The notes beneath the pieces were generated by a model. The model was not told the DNA's origin. It ran no database searches and saw only the letters and a program-made list of their open reading frames with translations. From Pirellulaceae bacterium (GTDB lineage Bacteria; Planctomycetota; Planctomycetia; Pirellulales; Pirellulaceae): 64,000 nt of DNA. The stretch spans positions 310,001 to 374,000 of the forward strand of contig JAHBXT010000004.1 of the NCBI GenBank assembly GCA_019636385.1, given 5' to 3'. Numbering within the stretch: position 1 is the stretch's first letter; each line of letters starts with the position of its first letter. Below are positions 13,276-25,089 of the stretch, one piece after another. A program made the position numbers and the translations under genes.

Positions 13276-13917
13276 CTAGCCGCCAGTTAAGCCACTCTTG
13301 ACGGCCCAAACGGCAGCTGCAGTGCGATCGGCCGAGTCCAGCTTGCGGAGGATATTCTGCACATGCTCCTTGACCGTCTCGACGCTGATCGCTAGCGACG
13401 TGCCGATCTCCTTGTTGCTTAACCCCAGCGCGATGTGGCGCAGCACCTGCAACTCGCGATTGGTCAGCGGAACCTCTTTTGAGTCGACGCGATCCTTGCG
13501 TTTCTGCATCGTGTACTGAACTTGTTTGAGCAAACTAGATTCCAGTGGCGGCTCATTGGCAACCGCCAGCTTGATTGCATTTAGGATCTCATCCCGGGAG
13601 GCGTCCTTCAATAGGTAGTCTCTAGCCCCCAGCGCGATCGACCGAGCCACATAGGTCGGGTTGTCGTAGGTCGACAGAACGATCACGGCCGTATCCGGTG
13701 AGCCCTCTAAGAGTTCCTCAACCGCATCGAGGCCATCTTCATCAGCCAAACGCACATCCAACAAGACCACATCCGGCTTTTTGGCCTTGGCCAGCGACAA
13801 CAGCTGGGACACATTGGCGGCAGCTCCCACAACCTCGATGTCGGCTCCCTCCAACAGGCTACCAAGCCCGCTGCGAACCACCTCGTGATCGTCACAGATC
13901 AAAACGCGAATTCTCAC
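13276..13917 (-). CDS. Response regulator, NarL/FixJ-type, with LuxR HTH
   Basis: 213 residues. The receiver domain (1-120) starts RIRVLICDDHEVVRSGL, has the acidic pair at residues 9-10, the phospho-acceptor Asp54 in VVLLDVRLADEDG and the conserved Lys in YLLKDAS. The LuxR-type DNA-binding domain is at about 145-205 (LTNRELQVLRHIALGLSNKE, then TVKEHVQNILRKL). A GTG at 13917 with GGAGAG 5 nt upstream is preferred over the GTG at 13944. No histidine kinase is adjacent, so the partner is unknown. It is divergent from the NtrC-type regulator. Confidence 0.9.
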   Translation of the reverse strand: MRIRVLICDDHEVVRSGLGSLLEGADIEVVGAAANVSQLLSLAKAKKPDVVLLDVRLADEDGLDAVEELLEGSPDTAVIVLSTYDNPTYVARSIALGARDYLLKDASRDEILNAIKLAVANEPPLESSLLKQVQYTMQKRKDRVDSKEVPLTNRELQVLRHIALGLSNKEIGTSLAISVETVKEHVQNILRKLDSADRTAAAVWAVKSGLTGG

Positions 13918-14140
13918 TACGACTCTCCGGCTTGTCTGGGGCACTGGTCAACCGCTGGAAAAACACCACCGATGACTACTCGGCCACCCACAAAAAGGTT
14001 AATCGAAGGTTCTTGGAAGTCGATTCCCCCCCAATAGAAGATTCCTTAGATTTGGCAAAATCCGATTTGTGCGCACTTTTTCGTCTGTGCTGCCTGGAAC
14101 TGGCTCATTGAACTAGAAGTCGCCATTTTGGAGTGGAAAT

Positions 14141-14242: not shown

Positions 14243-15634
14243 ATGGCAAGTGAAAGACTGTTGTTGGTAGATGATGACAACTGGCTATTGGAGTCGATGA
14301 GTCAGTGGCTGACCGAACAAGGTTATCGGGTAACTACGGCTCGCACAGTGGCTCAAGCCCGCAAGCTGGCTGGCCAAGCCGCCTTTGATGTCTGCCTAGC
14401 CGACATATGCCTTGAGGGCGAGGACGGGTTTGGCTTGCTCCAATGGTCGCGTCAGCACCAGCCGGAGTTGCCGGTGGTAATGATGACCGGCTACGGCGGG
14501 CCCGACAGTGGTGCCGAGGCGGTGGCTGCCGGAGCCTTCGACCTGCTGACCAAGCCCATAATCGACCAGGAGCTGCTAACGACTCTCCGCCGGGCCATGG
14601 ATCAAAAGCGAGTCGTGGCCGAAAACCGGCAGCTCAAAGAACAGCTCGATCGCCGCAGCGGATTAGAAAACATCCTCAGCCACGACCCGAGGATGTTGGA
14701 AATATTCGACATCATCGACAGTGTGGCGGACACGAAAGCCACAATCTTGATCACCGGCGAAAACGGCACCGGCAAGTCGATGATCGCTCGCTCGATCCAT
14801 CGCCGTAGCAGTCGCCGCGCGCGGCCTTTCGTCGAAGTAGCTTGTGGCGCGCTCCCCGACAATCTGCTGGAGAGCGAGTTGTTCGGACACACCGAGGGCG
14901 CGTTTACTGGTGCCACGCAGTCCAAGGCCGGTAAATTCGAGCACGCTCACACGGGCACGATTTTCTTAGACGAAATCGGCACCGCCTCGATGTCGCTGCA
15001 AATCAAATTGCTGCGTGTCCTGCAAGAGTTTGAGTTCGAACCCGTCGGTGGCAATAAGACCATCTCTGTCGACACGCGCTGCATCCTGGCTACCAACGAA
15101 GACCTGTCGGCTGCTGTCGAAACCGGCAAATTCCGTCAGGATCTGTACTATCGCGTTAACGTCATTCACTTTGAATTGCCCGCTCTACGACAGCGCGCCG
15201 GCGATATCCCGGTATTGATCGAGCACTTTTTGCAGAAGAACTTGGCGGAATTGCCCAAGGAGATTCAAGGGTTTTCAGCCGAGGCTCTGGAAATCTTGCT
15301 CAACTATGCCTGGCCCGGCAACATTCGTGAACTGGAAAACATCGTTCAGCGCGCCGTGCTGTTATCAAAACGCCCGGTGATCGGACCGGAATTACTGCCC
15401 AATAACGTGTTAGCCTCAGTTGGAGACAGGGGAACTCGTGTGCACTGTGGCCTCGTGGCTGGGCAATCGCTTCGCCAAGCCTTGGAAGGCCCCGAGCGTG
15501 CCATCATCCTGGAAGTGCTCCGCGCCAACGCCTTCAGTCGATCGCTAACCGCAGATCAACTGGGCATCAATCGCACCACGCTCTACAAAAAGATGAAGCG
15601 CCTCGGAATTGACGATCTGAGCTGCAAGGATTAG
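14243..15634 (+). CDS. Sigma-54-dependent response regulator (NtrC family)
   Basis: 463 residues with the complete three-domain plan. Receiver: LLLVDDDNWLLESM, phospho-acceptor Asp54 in LADICLEGEDG, and LLTKP. AAA+ domain: Walker A GENGTGKS at 172-179, the sigma-54 contact loop GAFTGA at 219-224, FLDEIG as Walker B, and the arginine-finger region FRQDLYYRVNV. A Fis-type helix-turn-helix ends the protein (LTADQLGINRTTLYKKMKRL). It should activate RNA polymerase-sigma54 promoters when phosphorylated. No histidine kinase gene is adjacent. Confidence 0.95.
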   Translation: MASERLLLVDDDNWLLESMSQWLTEQGYRVTTARTVAQARKLAGQAAFDVCLADICLEGEDGFGLLQWSRQHQPELPVVMMTGYGGPDSGAEAVAAGAFDLLTKPIIDQELLTTLRRAMDQKRVVAENRQLKEQLDRRSGLENILSHDPRMLEIFDIIDSVADTKATILITGENGTGKSMIARSIHRRSSRRARPFVEVACGALPDNLLESELFGHTEGAFTGATQSKAGKFEHAHTGTIFLDEIGTASMSLQIKLLRVLQEFEFEPVGGNKTISVDTRCILATNEDLSAAVETGKFRQDLYYRVNVIHFELPALRQRAGDIPVLIEHFLQKNLAELPKEIQGFSAEALEILLNYAWPGNIRELENIVQRAVLLSKRPVIGPELLPNNVLASVGDRGTRVHCGLVAGQSLRQALEGPERAIILEVLRANAFSRSLTADQLGINRTTLYKKMKRLGIDDLSCKD

Positions 15635-18817: not shown

Positions 18818-19228
18818 TTAGACTGAGGCTGACTCGCGAATCGCGGCTTGTATCGTTTGAAATTGAGAACGCATTAGAGCAATGGCTGTGTCATGCATCA
18901 TTTGGTTCTTGCTGATTTCGGTAATCTGCTGTTCCAGACTGATGTCGTTGCCATCGTGATATAAAACTTGATGCTGCACATCGCGCAGCTTGTCGACTGC
19001 AGCCTGCGACGAGGCCAAGCCGGGCGAATGAATTGCGGAGGAACCGCTGGGTTGGATACTTTCTTTGAGAGCTGTCTGAAAATCATCTACCGACAAATCT
19101 CGCGTGCGATAATCGGGAACGTCCAAGTTGGCGATGTTGCCCGCTAGCAAGGTATGGCGACGCTGTGCAAAACTTGCAGTCTGCTCCAGAGCTGGCAGCG
19201 TTGTCTGATTAAGCCAGGTGGACCACAT
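18818..19228 (-). CDS. flgB: Flagellar basal-body rod protein FlgB
   Basis: 136 residues, typical FlgB size. It contains the rod-protein N-terminal motif HTLLAGNIANLDVPDYRTRD and a C-terminal helix with ISLEQQITEISKNQMMHDTA, both characteristic of FlgB/FlgC-type rod proteins. FlgB is secreted by the flagellar type III apparatus and forms the proximal rod in the periplasm. It is the last gene of a three-gene leftward cluster (FlgN-like, HATPase-like, flgB). The next leftward gene is a ferritin-like protein, so the usual flgC neighbour is absent. Confidence 0.9.
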   Translation of the reverse strand: MWSTWLNQTTLPALEQTASFAQRRHTLLAGNIANLDVPDYRTRDLSVDDFQTALKESIQPSGSSAIHSPGLASSQAAVDKLRDVQHQVLYHDGNDISLEQQITEISKNQMMHDTAIALMRSQFQTIQAAIRESASV

Positions 19229-19261: not shown

Positions 19262-19699
19262 TCAAGCGGTCATGCGCAACCGGGCGAAATGAGTTTGCAC
19301 GACAATCCAGGCAACGCCACCATCAGGGCAGCGAGCTTTGTATGTGGTCAAGCAGCAACCATTGCTGACTCCGGTCGATTCACGGCGAAATGAGCTGAGC
19401 GATTCGTGAACCGACGACTGTCCATCTGTAGACACTTCGACCTCCAATCCACGCCGCGTCAAATACACGGCTATTTCCACCGTGGAGTCCGGTGATGCCG
19501 TTTGAGCGGCTTGCTGCAAGACATCGTCCAATCTGGACAATAAAGCTGGGCTGTAAGCCACAAATTCTAATCCCGGCTGCCATTGGCTTTCGAAACTGAG
19601 TGAGTAGCAGCCGCTCAGCTCTTGGCAACGCGCAGCAATCCAGGCTCGTAGCGTTGTCTGTGTACCGGCCTGCGAGCGGGAATTGGTAAAACCGACCAT
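19262..19699 (-). CDS. Small protein with degenerate histidine-kinase-type ATPase (HATPase_c-like) fold, flagellar cluster
   Basis: 145 residues. Residues about 48-135 follow the HATPase_c pattern: YSPALLSRLDDVLQQAAQTA in place of the N-box helix, then STVEIAVYLTRRGLEVEVST, a D-G-Q where the DxGxG loop should be, and CPDGGVAWIVVQTHF as the final strand pair. The N-box asparagine and the glycine loops that bind ATP are missing, so ATP binding is unlikely. There is no membrane segment or phospho-acceptor His domain. It sits 33 nt upstream of flgB and 36 nt downstream of the FlgN-like gene, so a role in flagellar assembly or its regulation is inferred. The fold assignment is by pattern only. Confidence 0.6.
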   Translation of the reverse strand: MVGFTNSRSQAGTQTTLRAWIAARCQELSGCYSLSFESQWQPGLEFVAYSPALLSRLDDVLQQAAQTASPDSTVEIAVYLTRRGLEVEVSTDGQSSVHESLSSFRRESTGVSNGCCLTTYKARCPDGGVAWIVVQTHFARLRMTA

Positions 19700-19735: not shown

Positions 19736-20227
19736 CTACAAGTCAGCAATATCTAGCGTACTATGGGCCAATAAATCTGCTGTTGAGTAGGCGTGCTCTG
19801 CCAATCGGGTATCCTGGCCATGTTTGAGCTGTGCGGCCAACGCATCCCGTTGTTGGCTCATCCACTGCAGCGTTTGACCGTCCAGCTCCAGCACTTCCTT
19901 TAGTCGCTGATTGGTCTGCTGCAAGAGTTGGTCGCAGCTCTGTCGCAGTTGTGGATTCGCCCAGACTCGGTGCTGTGGGTCATCCTGGCGATAAATGTGA
20001 AGCTGATCGTCCAACCGCAAAAGCTGATCAATCAAGGACTCCTTTTGAGCCAATAAGCGAAGGGTGGCTGATAGTTCCTGCCCGGAATGCGATTGGCTTT
20101 GTGCCTGCGTGACTGTCAGCAGGTCCTGAGCGATGGTAAGACGCTGCTGAACCAGCTCCCATAGCCGCTGGGTATATGCCGTTGAAGAACGATCGACCGT
20201 CGTTGTTATCGTTTGCAGGCCGTCCAT
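19736..20227 (-). CDS. FlgN-like flagellar export chaperone
   Basis: 163 residues, nearly all helical and glutamine/leucine-rich. QRLTIAQDLLTVTQAQSQS and LLAQKESLIDQLLRLDDQL reproduce the FlgN pattern of a long amphipathic helix with a K-E-x-L-x-x-x-L core, and a C-terminal helix follows (LELDGQTLQWMSQQRDALAA). FlgN binds hook-junction proteins FlgK/FlgL in the cytoplasm. Assignment rests on helix pattern, size and its place upstream of flgB; sequence identity is too low to be sure. Confidence 0.6.
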   Translation of the reverse strand: MDGLQTITTTVDRSSTAYTQRLWELVQQRLTIAQDLLTVTQAQSQSHSGQELSATLRLLAQKESLIDQLLRLDDQLHIYRQDDPQHRVWANPQLRQSCDQLLQQTNQRLKEVLELDGQTLQWMSQQRDALAAQLKHGQDTRLAEHAYSTADLLAHSTLDIADL

Positions 20228-20411
20228 GACCTTCTCTTCCTTGCTGGCTAGCTGTCCGTGCTTAGATAATCCATGCGTCCAGCTTTGCTAGGACTACCCA
20301 CACTCTGGCAAGCTTAGCTACGGGGTGGCTTCTTGACTGGCTTTTAGCACAAACAGCCGGACTGGAGCGAGAGAGAATTCTCAAGCATGATGGTGGGACA
20401 TGCTAGCAACT

Positions 20412-22823
20412 CTAATGCCATTCGCGGAGACACCCTAGCAATTGCTGCCAGTGCGGCCGATCACCGCGAGTGCAAGAGACAAAAATAGCGTCATATTCTG
20501 CCGGAATGCGCTGCAAAACTAGCTCTGCCTGTCGAATTGTTTTCTGCGCGTCGTCATCTCGACCTAGCTTTCGCTGGCACTGCGCAATCTGCACTAGAGC
20601 TTCTAAGGCTTCGGGTTGATTGGCGTAGTGCCCTGCGGCAGTCTTCAGCGACTCGATAGCCAGCTCGTATCGTCCCAATTCCTGCAACACGTCCGCAGCG
20701 CCAAAGTACGCGCTGCGTAGCAGCGATTGGTCCAACGGCTGTTGTTGCGCGGCCTCACGCTGTGCCTGGATAGTACGCTGCAGCTCTTGATACTCTCCTA
20801 CCGCCTTCTCCAGCAACTCTGTGCGTTGTTGTCGATAACGTCGTTTGGCGGCGGCAGTGACAGCCGAACTGAATTTTAAGACTTGTTCTGGATAATGCGC
20901 TGCCAATTGATAACTGCGAGCCAGTTGATATCGTACTTGGCAGTAGCGCGCATCATCCGGATATCGACCAGCCGCTTCCGACAATTGGTTGATGGCCAAC
21001 ACTAACTCTTGGTGCGTAGCTGCATGCTGCGACTCGAGTTCACTCCAGTCCGATTTGGCGTCTGAGTTTAGGGTTTCTAGCATCCGTTGCCCGCGTTTAT
21101 ACAGCAGATTACCCAACTCAAAAAAACTGTCTCGCCACACGGAGCTGTCGGGATGGAGGTCGTAGTCCCATAGGTTCGCCTCAAGTAATTCGATGGCCTG
21201 TTGGCTGTGGCCCATTTCGCTCAGTGCTCGAGCTGCCAAGAAGCGTGCCTCGTAACTGCTAGGGCTCAACGGATACTCGCCCAAGCATCGCTGCAACGGC
21301 TCCAATCCAGCCGACCATTGACTGGCTGCAATCAGGTTGCGACCCAGCGCTAACAAACCTCGGGCTCGTCGCGAGCGCTGCTCGAATTTCAGGTAGGTGT
21401 TGAGCATACGGTTGGCAGAGTCCAACTGTTGAGCCTTGCGATAATTCTCGGCCGCGTTCCAAACGCTGGTCAGGTAATCTTTCGAGCGCAGCTCCAGTGT
21501 CGCCAGTTGTTCATATTTCTCTCCGGCTTGACCGAATAGTTGCTGCATTCGTTGGCGTGACTCGGGATCATTAGCTTTTCGATCGCGCTCGACGGTGCTT
21601 GCCCAGTTCGCCAATGAATTGGCTTGCAGCCGCACTGAATCGATGATTGGAAAGGCAAGACCAAGCTGGTTGGCGAGTTCGATGGCCAAATCGAATTTCT
21701 CCTTGATGCGCAGTTTGTCTCCCAACTCGGCCAGTCGCACTCTTAACTCATCGACCGATAGCCAATACGCGTTGAACAATTGAATATCGCTAATTCCGCG
21801 CAATAGTTGTCGGGTGGCAGTCAAAATTTCGACGTCTCGATCCAGCTCCTGAAGCACTTCGGCCTCTTCCAGTCCAGCGGCAATGGCTTCAGCAGAGAAC
21901 GGGCTGAACTGGCGAACCGCGCTGAATGTGCCTATACACTCTCGTAACAACCCTTGGCTGCGCTGTACTCGCCCCATCAGGTAATAGGCCTGTCGGCGAA
22001 CTTCATTGGGTGTGTCACTGATCTTCAAGAGCTTCTGAAGGATGCCATAAGACTCGTCGAGCAGTTTCCGTTGGCTCTCGGGCTCTAGATTAGGCAGCAT
22101 CGACTCGTGCAGCCGCGCCAAGGCTTGTAACTTCAGCGCATGATAATGTTCGGGAATACCGGCAGGGACTTGCGCCAGTGCTTGATAGACTGCGGGCATA
22201 TCACCGCGTTTGAGTGCGATTTGGGCTTCGGCTAGATCGGAGTTCGTCACTTCTCGCGCCGAAATGCCAGGTAGTCTGCGCCATTGTTGTAGGACCTTGT
22301 TCGCTGCCTCTAGATCAGGCACGGGCAGCCGTAGATGTGCAGCCACCATCATTTGCAGGGCTTGACTGCGAACTTCAGGATACTCTTTCAAGGATTCGTT
22401 CAGTGGCCCAATCGCCTCTTGCCATCGGTAGGTATTGTACAAACAGACACCTAGACAGAAGTTGCCCTTGGCGCGGTAGCCAACCGGAAAGCCCAGCTCT
22501 CGACTTTTCTCCAAACACTTTGTGGCTTCAAACAGAATACGTCGGTGTTGATAGTTATCGAAATCGTCGGCGACCCGCGCTAGTAGCGCTGCACCTTTGA
22601 CGTATTGCCAAGTGGCATGGTTATCGACATCCGCCAACTCCCCTTCCAAGTCTTGAACTAGGCGATTGGCCAGATCCCAGCGCCCATCATCGACCCACCG
22701 ACAGGCCAGTTTTAGACGTTCTTCATTGTCAAAATCGGGCTTAACGATAGCCGAGAAGACCAGCCCGAAAACGACGGCGGCCGCGACAGAGGCCACCACG
22801 ATCACCGGCAACTTTTTAGACAT
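20412..22823 (-). CDS. Membrane-anchored TPR protein
   Basis: 803 residues. A single N-terminal signal anchor (LPVIVVASVAAAVVFGLVFS) is followed by about 750 residues of tetratricopeptide-like helices, for example AKGNFCLGVCLYNTYRWQEA, YYLMGRVQRSQGLLRECIGT and ARALSEMGHSQQAIELLEAN. It should expose a long superhelical scaffold on the periplasmic side. No enzyme domain is visible. It starts 184 nt upstream of the FlgN-like gene on the same strand, but a flagellar role is not evident. Confidence 0.8.
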   Translation of the reverse strand: MSKKLPVIVVASVAAAVVFGLVFSAIVKPDFDNEERLKLACRWVDDGRWDLANRLVQDLEGELADVDNHATWQYVKGAALLARVADDFDNYQHRRILFEATKCLEKSRELGFPVGYRAKGNFCLGVCLYNTYRWQEAIGPLNESLKEYPEVRSQALQMMVAAHLRLPVPDLEAANKVLQQWRRLPGISAREVTNSDLAEAQIALKRGDMPAVYQALAQVPAGIPEHYHALKLQALARLHESMLPNLEPESQRKLLDESYGILQKLLKISDTPNEVRRQAYYLMGRVQRSQGLLRECIGTFSAVRQFSPFSAEAIAAGLEEAEVLQELDRDVEILTATRQLLRGISDIQLFNAYWLSVDELRVRLAELGDKLRIKEKFDLAIELANQLGLAFPIIDSVRLQANSLANWASTVERDRKANDPESRQRMQQLFGQAGEKYEQLATLELRSKDYLTSVWNAAENYRKAQQLDSANRMLNTYLKFEQRSRRARGLLALGRNLIAASQWSAGLEPLQRCLGEYPLSPSSYEARFLAARALSEMGHSQQAIELLEANLWDYDLHPDSSVWRDSFFELGNLLYKRGQRMLETLNSDAKSDWSELESQHAATHQELVLAINQLSEAAGRYPDDARYCQVRYQLARSYQLAAHYPEQVLKFSSAVTAAAKRRYRQQRTELLEKAVGEYQELQRTIQAQREAAQQQPLDQSLLRSAYFGAADVLQELGRYELAIESLKTAAGHYANQPEALEALVQIAQCQRKLGRDDDAQKTIRQAELVLQRIPAEYDAIFVSCTRGDRPHWQQLLGCLREWH

Positions 22824-23094: not shown

Positions 23095-23991
23095 TTAATT
23101 CCTGGAGAACGTCGCAGCCTGTTCATCAGAACGAGCCATAGGCTGATTGGTGACATGTTGCATCAACCACAGATTGGTATCGCTAAGCATATTGCTGAGC
23201 AATTCGTCCCCGCACGGATATTGGCGAATGTCCAACGCCAAACCGGCGGCGTGCAACACCGGCAAAGATTCGCAAATGTGGCTCACACTACACTGAGTTG
23301 AATGCTCACCGTACAGCCACAGAATCGGTAACGTTCTGGCCTGGGGCAAATTACTCAGCGCACACTGTTCATTGGGGAATTTGCAGCCAACAGCGACGAC
23401 GCCCGCAAACAGATGGGCATAGCGAAGGCCAATACGCAGGGCCATCGTTCCACCCGATCCGAAACCGGCCAAAAATATGCGGCGACGATTAATTGAAAAC
23501 TGCTCGGCGGCGACGCCTAAGCTCTCAAATACAATCTCTTCTGCCACTCCGGTGGCTGTGGGCGATTTTCCCCACACAAACCGGCCCGATCCACGATCGC
23601 TGGATATCGGTCCGCGCGGAGCGCAACCCACATAGTTCTGCAAACTCAAGGCCGGCATGACACCTTCCAGTTCGCCCTCACTACTGTGGCAGCTATGCAA
23701 CCACACCAGCAACGGGTACTCATAGCGCGGTTCATAACGCTCTGGGCCAAACAGCGCCAGCTGGTGCTCCGTCAGAACGTAATCGCTTTGAATGGCACAG
23801 GATGTTCCAGAAACTTGATGAACCAAATCAAAACCAGCACCATCGATCGAAGAAACGATTCGGTTTCGCATTGCTCGATAGTCTCGTTGGCGTATGAACG
23901 AACTGAGCAGCAGACGGCTAGCCATCTTCAAGTGCTCAGCAGTAAGATTAACAAAACTTGCCGTTGTGTACACCCTTTGGACGATGCACAA
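23095..23991 (-). CDS. Alpha/beta-hydrolase (carboxylesterase-type) protein with degenerate catalytic triad
   Basis: 298 residues with the phospholipase/carboxylesterase plan: YPLLVWLHSCHSSEGELEG (oxyanion strand), INRRRIFLAGFGSGGTMALR (nucleophile elbow), LPILWLYGEHSTQCSV (acid strand) and IRQYPCGDELLSN (histidine loop). The canonical elbow is GFSxGG; here it reads GFGSGG, putting Gly178 at the nucleophile position and moving Ser to the next site. The canonical G-x-x-D-x-V-V-P acid loop and G-H-E histidine are replaced by GEHSTQCS and GDE. It is therefore probably a non-catalytic paralogue or has altered chemistry. The start is uncertain: ATG 23991 or ATG 23925. Confidence 0.75.
   Translation of the reverse strand: MCIVQRVYTTASFVNLTAEHLKMASRLLLSSFIRQRDYRAMRNRIVSSIDGAGFDLVHQVSGTSCAIQSDYVLTEHQLALFGPERYEPRYEYPLLVWLHSCHSSEGELEGVMPALSLQNYVGCAPRGPISSDRGSGRFVWGKSPTATGVAEEIVFESLGVAAEQFSINRRRIFLAGFGSGGTMALRIGLRYAHLFAGVVAVGCKFPNEQCALSNLPQARTLPILWLYGEHSTQCSVSHICESLPVLHAAGLALDIRQYPCGDELLSNMLSDTNLWLMQHVTNQPMARSDEQAATFSRN

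Positions 23992-24141: not shown

Positions 24142-25089
<948 letters not shown>

Follow-up and report, generated by a model that had tools for sequence, protein, structure and literature searches.

The gene at positions 19262–19699 (minus strand) of the analysed window, a stretch of 64,000 nucleotides from a Pirellulaceae bacterium, very probably encodes the relic of a flagellar sensor kinase. Since the N-terminal part, the DHp domain and the partner regulator have been lost and a degraded histidine-kinase ATPase (CA) domain is retained, the product, a CA-only pseudo-kinase here termed HATP, is best understood as the remnant of the FlrB/FlgS-like sensor kinase of its own operon, a descent that sequence comparison makes highly credible. 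Orthology of this operon kinase to FlgS or FlrB is putative. In HATP a signalling enzyme has been strikingly pared down to a remainder without catalysis, which is kept beside fliF in many lineages. The best explanation for the whole, that the relic is retained as a partner of the FliF/FliG base without catalytic activity, is proposed here with evenly divided confidence.

The open reading frame comprises 145 codons and lies 36 nt from the FlgN-like chaperone gene directly upstream (19736–20227, minus strand) and 33 nt from flgB directly downstream (18818–19228, minus strand), the last gene of the cluster at this place. An earlier note on this DNA had located a gene between these two neighbours, and the frame, its position and both neighbours are confirmed. 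The proximal rod protein FlgB is clearly identified by NCBIfam TIGR01396 (E 1.2e-15), with 57.9 bits just under the cut-off of 59.05. For the FlgN-like protein the Pfam FliT match is weak when taken alone (E 0.0043, below the cut-off), whereas the assignment is clear with an iterated FlgN profile (1e-35). Further upstream on the same strand are a TPR protein gene (20412–22823; Pfam TPR_6, 1.7e-12), which forms the head of the ancestral flagellar operon and also precedes FlgN in loci with a full kinase, and two genes that serve as anchors of the locus. These encode an esterase/PHA-depolymerase-like protein (23095–23991, minus strand; NCBIfam NF050058, 1.8e-10, below the cut-off) and a protein that we take to be malate/lactate dehydrogenase-like (MDH; 24142–25083, minus strand); both have phmmer matches in related loci. 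By gene content the genome belongs to a flagellated organism, with FlhA, FliP, four flagellin matches and FlgC-FliE-FliF. The FlgN-HATP-FlgB unit is detached in this genome, FlgC-FliE-FliF being found on another contig.

Searched singly against Pfam and NCBIfam, the window protein gives no HATPase match. The Pfam search yielded only CGLA_C (E 0.006, below the cut-off, residues 126–144), NCBIfam gave no match at all, and a scan of viral contigs found nothing. The assignment becomes accessible through its relatives. A profile built from 25 of them retrieved histidine-kinase CA domains first when compared with the PDB (PhoR 2.1e-8, ZraS 1.6e-7, followed by CovS, DivL and FixL), and in Pfam, with models considered up to E 10, HATPase_c was matched by 17 of the 25 members (best 1.4e-4). 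An AlphaFold2 model of the window protein, computed from a 41-row alignment, adopts the CA fold with a pLDDT of 79.3 and a pTM of 0.75. In Foldseek its best match is MprB (8.1e-6), but with modest TM-scores (0.46–0.62 of the query) and an rmsd of about 5–8 Å; superposition onto the CA domain of VanSA with VIA-align gave a Z-score of 12.8 and 3.3 Å over 121 residues. The model of a relative (L047) is of higher confidence (pLDDT 86.7, pTM 0.81) and likewise matches CA domains, with PhoQ as the best (TM 0.71/0.75, 2.7 Å). The predicted fold of the 145-residue protein is that of a CA domain, in line with the HATPase fold proposed in the earlier note, for which the suggested profile and structure comparisons both place CA domains at the top.

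The slot in which HATP resides was originally occupied by a complete two-component system. The ancestral operon has the order TPR-FlgN-sensor kinase-NtrC-type regulator-FlgB-FlgC-FliE-FliF, which is found in many genomes of the window's family with a full kinase and also in other families of the order. In a class-wide search of 248 genomes, 40 proved to have the flagellar NtrC-type regulator, 13 from the window's family and 27 from other families of the order. Eleven loci were picked from these 27 regulator-bearing genomes, representing eight families (f2, f7, f9, f10, f13, f16, f17 and f20), and all of them show TPR-FlgN-kinase-regulator-FlgB-FlgC-FliE; FliF is the next gene in ten and is not within the stretch in the eleventh (L246). 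Ten of these 11 kinases show the H-box pattern. In some genomes of the window's family, a HATP of about 140 residues is located where kinase and regulator stood. HATP and the operon kinase share the same chromosomal slot, with matches to the MDH and esterase genes within related loci.

The profile of the 25 relatives (A1) was also run against 149 genomes of the family, 42 of which carry HATP (112–192 bits), usually in the kinase slot. Among the next 56 matches, with 94 to 49.6 bits, the 52 that were fetched proved to be operon kinases or short kinase-derived proteins, and 13 other kinases, hand-picked for comparison among the weaker matches, reached 36–44 bits. Exceptions to this ranking are an unfetched frame with 47.5 bits (G107) and a relocated operon kinase with only 25 bits (L219); as an indication of kinship the ranking is therefore strong but not perfect. 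The partner regulator follows a sharp distribution. Orthologs occur in 43 of the 149 genomes (at least 586 bits, all other matches being at or below 483), and none of these 43 is among the 42 genomes with HATP. The best match of the regulator profile in the window genome (5.4e-130) is at background level. An NtrC-type regulator (14243–15634) and a NarL-type regulator (13276–13944) are encoded near the flagellar genes of the window. The former was considered as a relocated partner of HATP and rejected, because even the best match of the genome is only background. One locus (L220, genome G062) encodes a full flagellar kinase with intact motifs in a genome that has no regulator ortholog and only a fragment of FlgC, which suggests that the regulator can be lost before the kinase.

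The earlier note had described the N-box asparagine and the glycine loops as missing, and mapping onto the kinase alignment bears this out. In the N-box remnant of the window copy (residues 59–63, D-V-L-Q-Q; 19511–19525, minus strand) Gln63 occupies the column of the Mg-binding asparagine. The strand E-V-E-V-S-T-D-G (residues 86–93; 19421–19444, minus strand) combines a conserved E-x-E with a ruined G1 box, in which Thr91 is found at the aspartate column and Gly93 is the sole glycine left, and the lid and the G2 loop are deleted. The 66 core HATPs are similarly affected. The N-box asparagine is present in none and is replaced by glutamine in 55; the second glycine of G1 is kept in 4, and nearly all have lost both the lid and G2. 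The G1 aspartate is kept in 64 of the 66, so the window copy with its threonine is more decayed than the core. Among 15 diverged copies, 7 have an asparagine at the N-box column. The H-box is present in all 40 operon kinases of the family and absent from all 66 core HATPs, all 15 diverged copies and all three intermediates, and G1 and G2 are likewise kept in 40 of 40 operon kinases, 38 of them aligned and two (L109 and L122) falling below the profile cut-off and thus lying outside the alignment. Since the Mg-binding asparagine, the lid and the G2 loop are lost, HATP should be incapable of kinase activity, and binding of ATP is very improbable; that the CA domain is a dead enzyme is to be considered highly likely from its residues.

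While the catalytic residues decayed, two other motifs persisted. The tail motif C-P-x-G-G (C-P-D-G-G in the window copy, residues 124–128; 19316–19330, minus strand) is common to most of the flagellar-operon kinases. Its cysteine is found in 65 of 66 core HATPs, 15 of 15 diverged copies and 37 of 40 operon kinases (missing in L219, L109 and L122), compared with none of the 13 other kinases. The second glutamate of E-x-E is conserved in all 66 core HATPs, all 15 diverged copies, 36 of the 38 aligned operon kinases and 7 of the 13 other kinases. In three of the 11 operon kinases from other families neither the tail pattern nor the E-x-E pattern was found. The window copy retains both motifs, but Ser-Thr replaces Ala-Asp of the longer pattern E-x-E-x-A-D.

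Intermediate states between the full kinase and HATP can be observed. In L187 the DHp domain and the F-box phenylalanine are lost, but N, G1 and the greater part of G2 persist; only N and G1 are left in L202 and L205, and in L253, from another family, N, G1 and G2 are still present. From the CA-domain alignment of 135 rows, 16 were dropped at 93% identity or more and 119 were used for a tree, in which the flagellar kinases together with HATP are weakly separated from the other kinases, with an SH-aLRT of 77 that comes from a quick tree with long branches. Within the family, the domain tree requires a minimum of three transitions from full to reduced forms or back, with weak support. With 41% identity to its nearest relative in the tree, the window copy belongs to the most diverged, and HATP diverges rapidly in the genus of the window.

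Reduced forms are not confined to the window's family. An order-wide search of 196 genomes yielded short frames in other families, and 19 of the corresponding loci were fetched. In 18 of these, distributed over four families (f3, f8, f17 and f18), a CA-like protein of 154–188 residues without an H-box is present and FliF is the next recognised gene; the remaining locus (L263) is truncated where its contig ends, and a regulator is found next to it. All 19 copies keep C-P/A-x-G-G. Relatives of both the MDH and the esterase gene occur within the fetched stretch of 15 of the 19 loci, which places most of them at the same chromosomal position; the esterase alone is found in L254, and neither gene in L255, L263 and L264. 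Full and reduced forms coexist in f17 as well as in the window's family, which points to more than one independent reduction. As to conservation between flagellar genes of other planctomycetes, which the earlier note had named as a check, HATP is located in flagellar clusters of relatives at the level of both family and order.

The reduced gene is under purifying selection in all 16 close pairs of relatives examined, with dN/dS values of 0.041–0.207, similar to FlgN and mostly above FlgC. Selection on the window copy itself is unmeasurable, since dS of its pair is saturated. No internal stop was found in any of the 42 HATP matches. For 84 distinct reduced sequences, the same strand was searched downstream for five flagellar genes, and the nearest was FliF in 38, FlgB in 34, FlgC in 7 and none in 5; flgB/flgC or fliF are thus located downstream in 79 of 84. 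The five exceptions comprise two loci with FliF in an overlapping frame (L069 and L072), one followed by an ORF that resembles FliF by its end (L191) and two in which the gene stands alone (L004 and L005), although FliF is present in both genomes with 30% and 35% identity to FliF of the window genome. A match to the rod/hook model Flg_bbr_C exists in 35 of the 42 HATP genomes and was not found in the other seven, which are 89–99% complete. Five of these seven loci were examined, and in each FliF follows HATP, overlapping in two and after FliE in one (L165). In the genus of the window, HATP is located beside flgB and away from fliF. Two further members of this genus (G009 and G012) possess FliF and FlgN-FlgB but no HATP, which demonstrates that the protein is dispensable.

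The conserved motifs, the lost residues and the company of FliF fit a binding role for HATP. According to excerpts of PMC7064773, the cytoplasmic kinase FlgS of C. jejuni makes physical contact with FliF and FliG once the MS ring and rotor have formed around the export core. The same excerpts describe the contact surface of FlgS on FliF/FliG as unknown and state that for FlrB and FleS no contact of this kind was detected. By analogy, the CA domain may have been the part with which the full operon kinase recognised the assembled FliF/FliG base. Once the regulator was lost, this domain would then have been free to be retained as a binding surface, and HATP could today represent a small non-catalytic adaptor at the FliF/FliG base, which helps or gates basal-body assembly without reporting to a regulator. 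The E-x-E strand together with the Cys-Pro-x-Gly-Gly hairpin is a candidate for the contact surface. That the CA domain was kept because it bore the surface recognising the FliF/FliG base of the export apparatus after assembly seems plausible, although we place it slightly below an even balance; FliF/FliG as partner is suggested by gene neighbourhood, which is weak evidence for a partner. More tentative still is the combined proposal that the CA domain, and not the N-terminal sensor region, recognises FliF/FliG, that the deletion ran more than once in the order and each time kept this domain, and that the domain became a new small non-catalytic element of the basal body or export base, also where rod, hook and filament have been lost. 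For the question of how flagellar sensor kinases sense a complete MS ring and rotor, the series from full kinase to dead CA domain points to one domain and two short motifs as the likely contact.

Among the alternatives, it is rather unlikely that the dead CA domain is still regulatory, binding a response regulator or the DHp domain of another kinase and thereby tuning late flagellar transcription. Such a role would be favoured by the origin of HATP from a kinase whose partner was an NtrC-type regulator, and precedents exist in a Caulobacter kinase that uses its output domain to read the state of a regulator (excerpts of PMC4211667) and in inactive ChrS, which heterodimerises with HrrS (excerpts of PMC9491836). 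Moreover, a sigma-54-like site with one mismatch is located at 20405–20420 (minus strand), where it overlaps the end of the TPR gene and precedes the FlgN-like gene by about 180 nt. However, sigma-54-like sites across the window are not above chance (45 with at most two mismatches against 47.65 expected, four of them with one mismatch), none of the 42 HATP genomes has the cognate regulator, HATP has no DHp domain, and the gene persists in the seven genomes without a Flg_bbr_C match. A partnership with the direct neighbours, HATP acting as a co-chaperone of FlgN or as an assembly factor of FlgB, would account for the arrangement in the window genome, where FlgN-HATP-FlgB is set apart from FlgC-FliE-FliF, and for the same triplet in G004, G007, G008, G011 and G013. 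It is nevertheless unlikely, given that in G006 and G014 neither FlgN nor FlgB is found beside HATP (stretches of at least 1.3 kb on each side), that many loci consist of HATP-FliF and that FlgN-FlgB persists without HATP in G009 and G012.

Similarly improbable is a functionless relic heading for loss. The absence of HATP from some members of the genus and its rapid divergence there would agree with decay, but the low dN/dS values, the uninterrupted reading frames, the retention of C-P-x-G-G and E-x-E in very diverged copies and the presence of the domain in other families argue against it. Stand-alone HATPase proteins are often of the SpoIIAB/RsbW kind, and the earlier note had pointed to this lineage, suggesting that a dead version could be a checkpoint or anti-sigma-binding factor. 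HATPase_c_2 is indeed matched by 2 of the 25 members (best E 0.0026), yet HATPase_c is matched by far more, the best PDB profile matches are histidine kinases, and slot and tail motif tie HATP to the operon kinase. An anti-sigma or anti-anti-sigma factor acting on FliA or FlgM is consequently very unlikely; the checkpoint part of the suggestion may still stand if the checkpoint is sought in the remnant of a flagellar sensor kinase. A nucleotide-sensing switch operating through the altered site could draw on the G1 aspartate of the core HATPs, but is highly improbable with the asparagine gone from all 66, with lid, second G1 glycine and G2 gone from most and with the aspartate itself missing in the window copy. 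Phosphotransfer of the ChpT type was considered on account of weak matches to HPTransfase in 4 of the 25 members and rejected, because HATP has no DHp domain.

Several known systems can be compared with the proposed partner of the FliF/FliG base. As in FlgSR, FlrBC and FleSR, the full kinase that occupied the ancestral slot has an NtrC-type regulator as its partner within a flagellar operon. In contrast to FlgS, FlrB and FleS, HATP is devoid of the sensor part, the DHp domain, the phosphoacceptor histidine, the ATP site and the regulator partner. DivL, a Caulobacter pseudo-kinase reading the state of a regulator, RocA and inactive ChrS have likewise kept the kinase fold after loss of activity and all retain the DHp domain. 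Pseudo-histidine kinases are known from excerpts of PMC4211667 and PMC5361649. These three act on other two-component proteins, whereas HATP consists of the CA domain alone. A different link is provided by FliX-FlbD of Caulobacter, in which a non-kinase protein connects basal-body assembly to a flagellar regulator (excerpts of PMC7064773); genomes with HATP, however, have no regulator ortholog. HATP shares with SpoIIAB and RsbW the single-domain HATPase fold, but is kinase-derived and has no ATP site. SpoIIAB and RsbW, members of HATPase_c_2 with about 140–160 residues, bind both ATP and sigma factors. ChpT likewise has a degenerate CA-like domain, but its DHp domain and the phosphoacceptor histidine carried there are both missing in HATP. 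A search of the open-licence literature did not turn up any account of a CA-only relic in a flagellar operon, and the excerpts of PMC12199754 and PMC12316311 contain nothing on this gene.

Some observations concern the flagellar apparatus of these genomes as such. Many of them have retained the flagellar export gate but show no rod or hook proteins; FlhA was detected in all 107 good genomes and Flg_bbr_C in 80. Of 44 genomes without Flg_bbr_C, 27 were tested; all 27 have FliP, one has a weak flagellin match, and some keep FliE. Judged from loci L187–L205 and L249–L267 and from the genomes of the family, a rod-less and filament-less secretion apparatus of the flagellar type seems to be widespread. 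A second, distant flagellar set (FlgB-FlgC-FliE-FliF, with FlgB about 30% identical) is present at L045, L179, L182, L185 and L186. Several genomes with this set have two FlhA matches, and in some the original locus has shrunk to HATP-FliF. In five loci (L065, L067, L068, L069 and L073) a gene that by eye is CsrA-like is located on the opposite strand, about 3–4 kb upstream of HATP.
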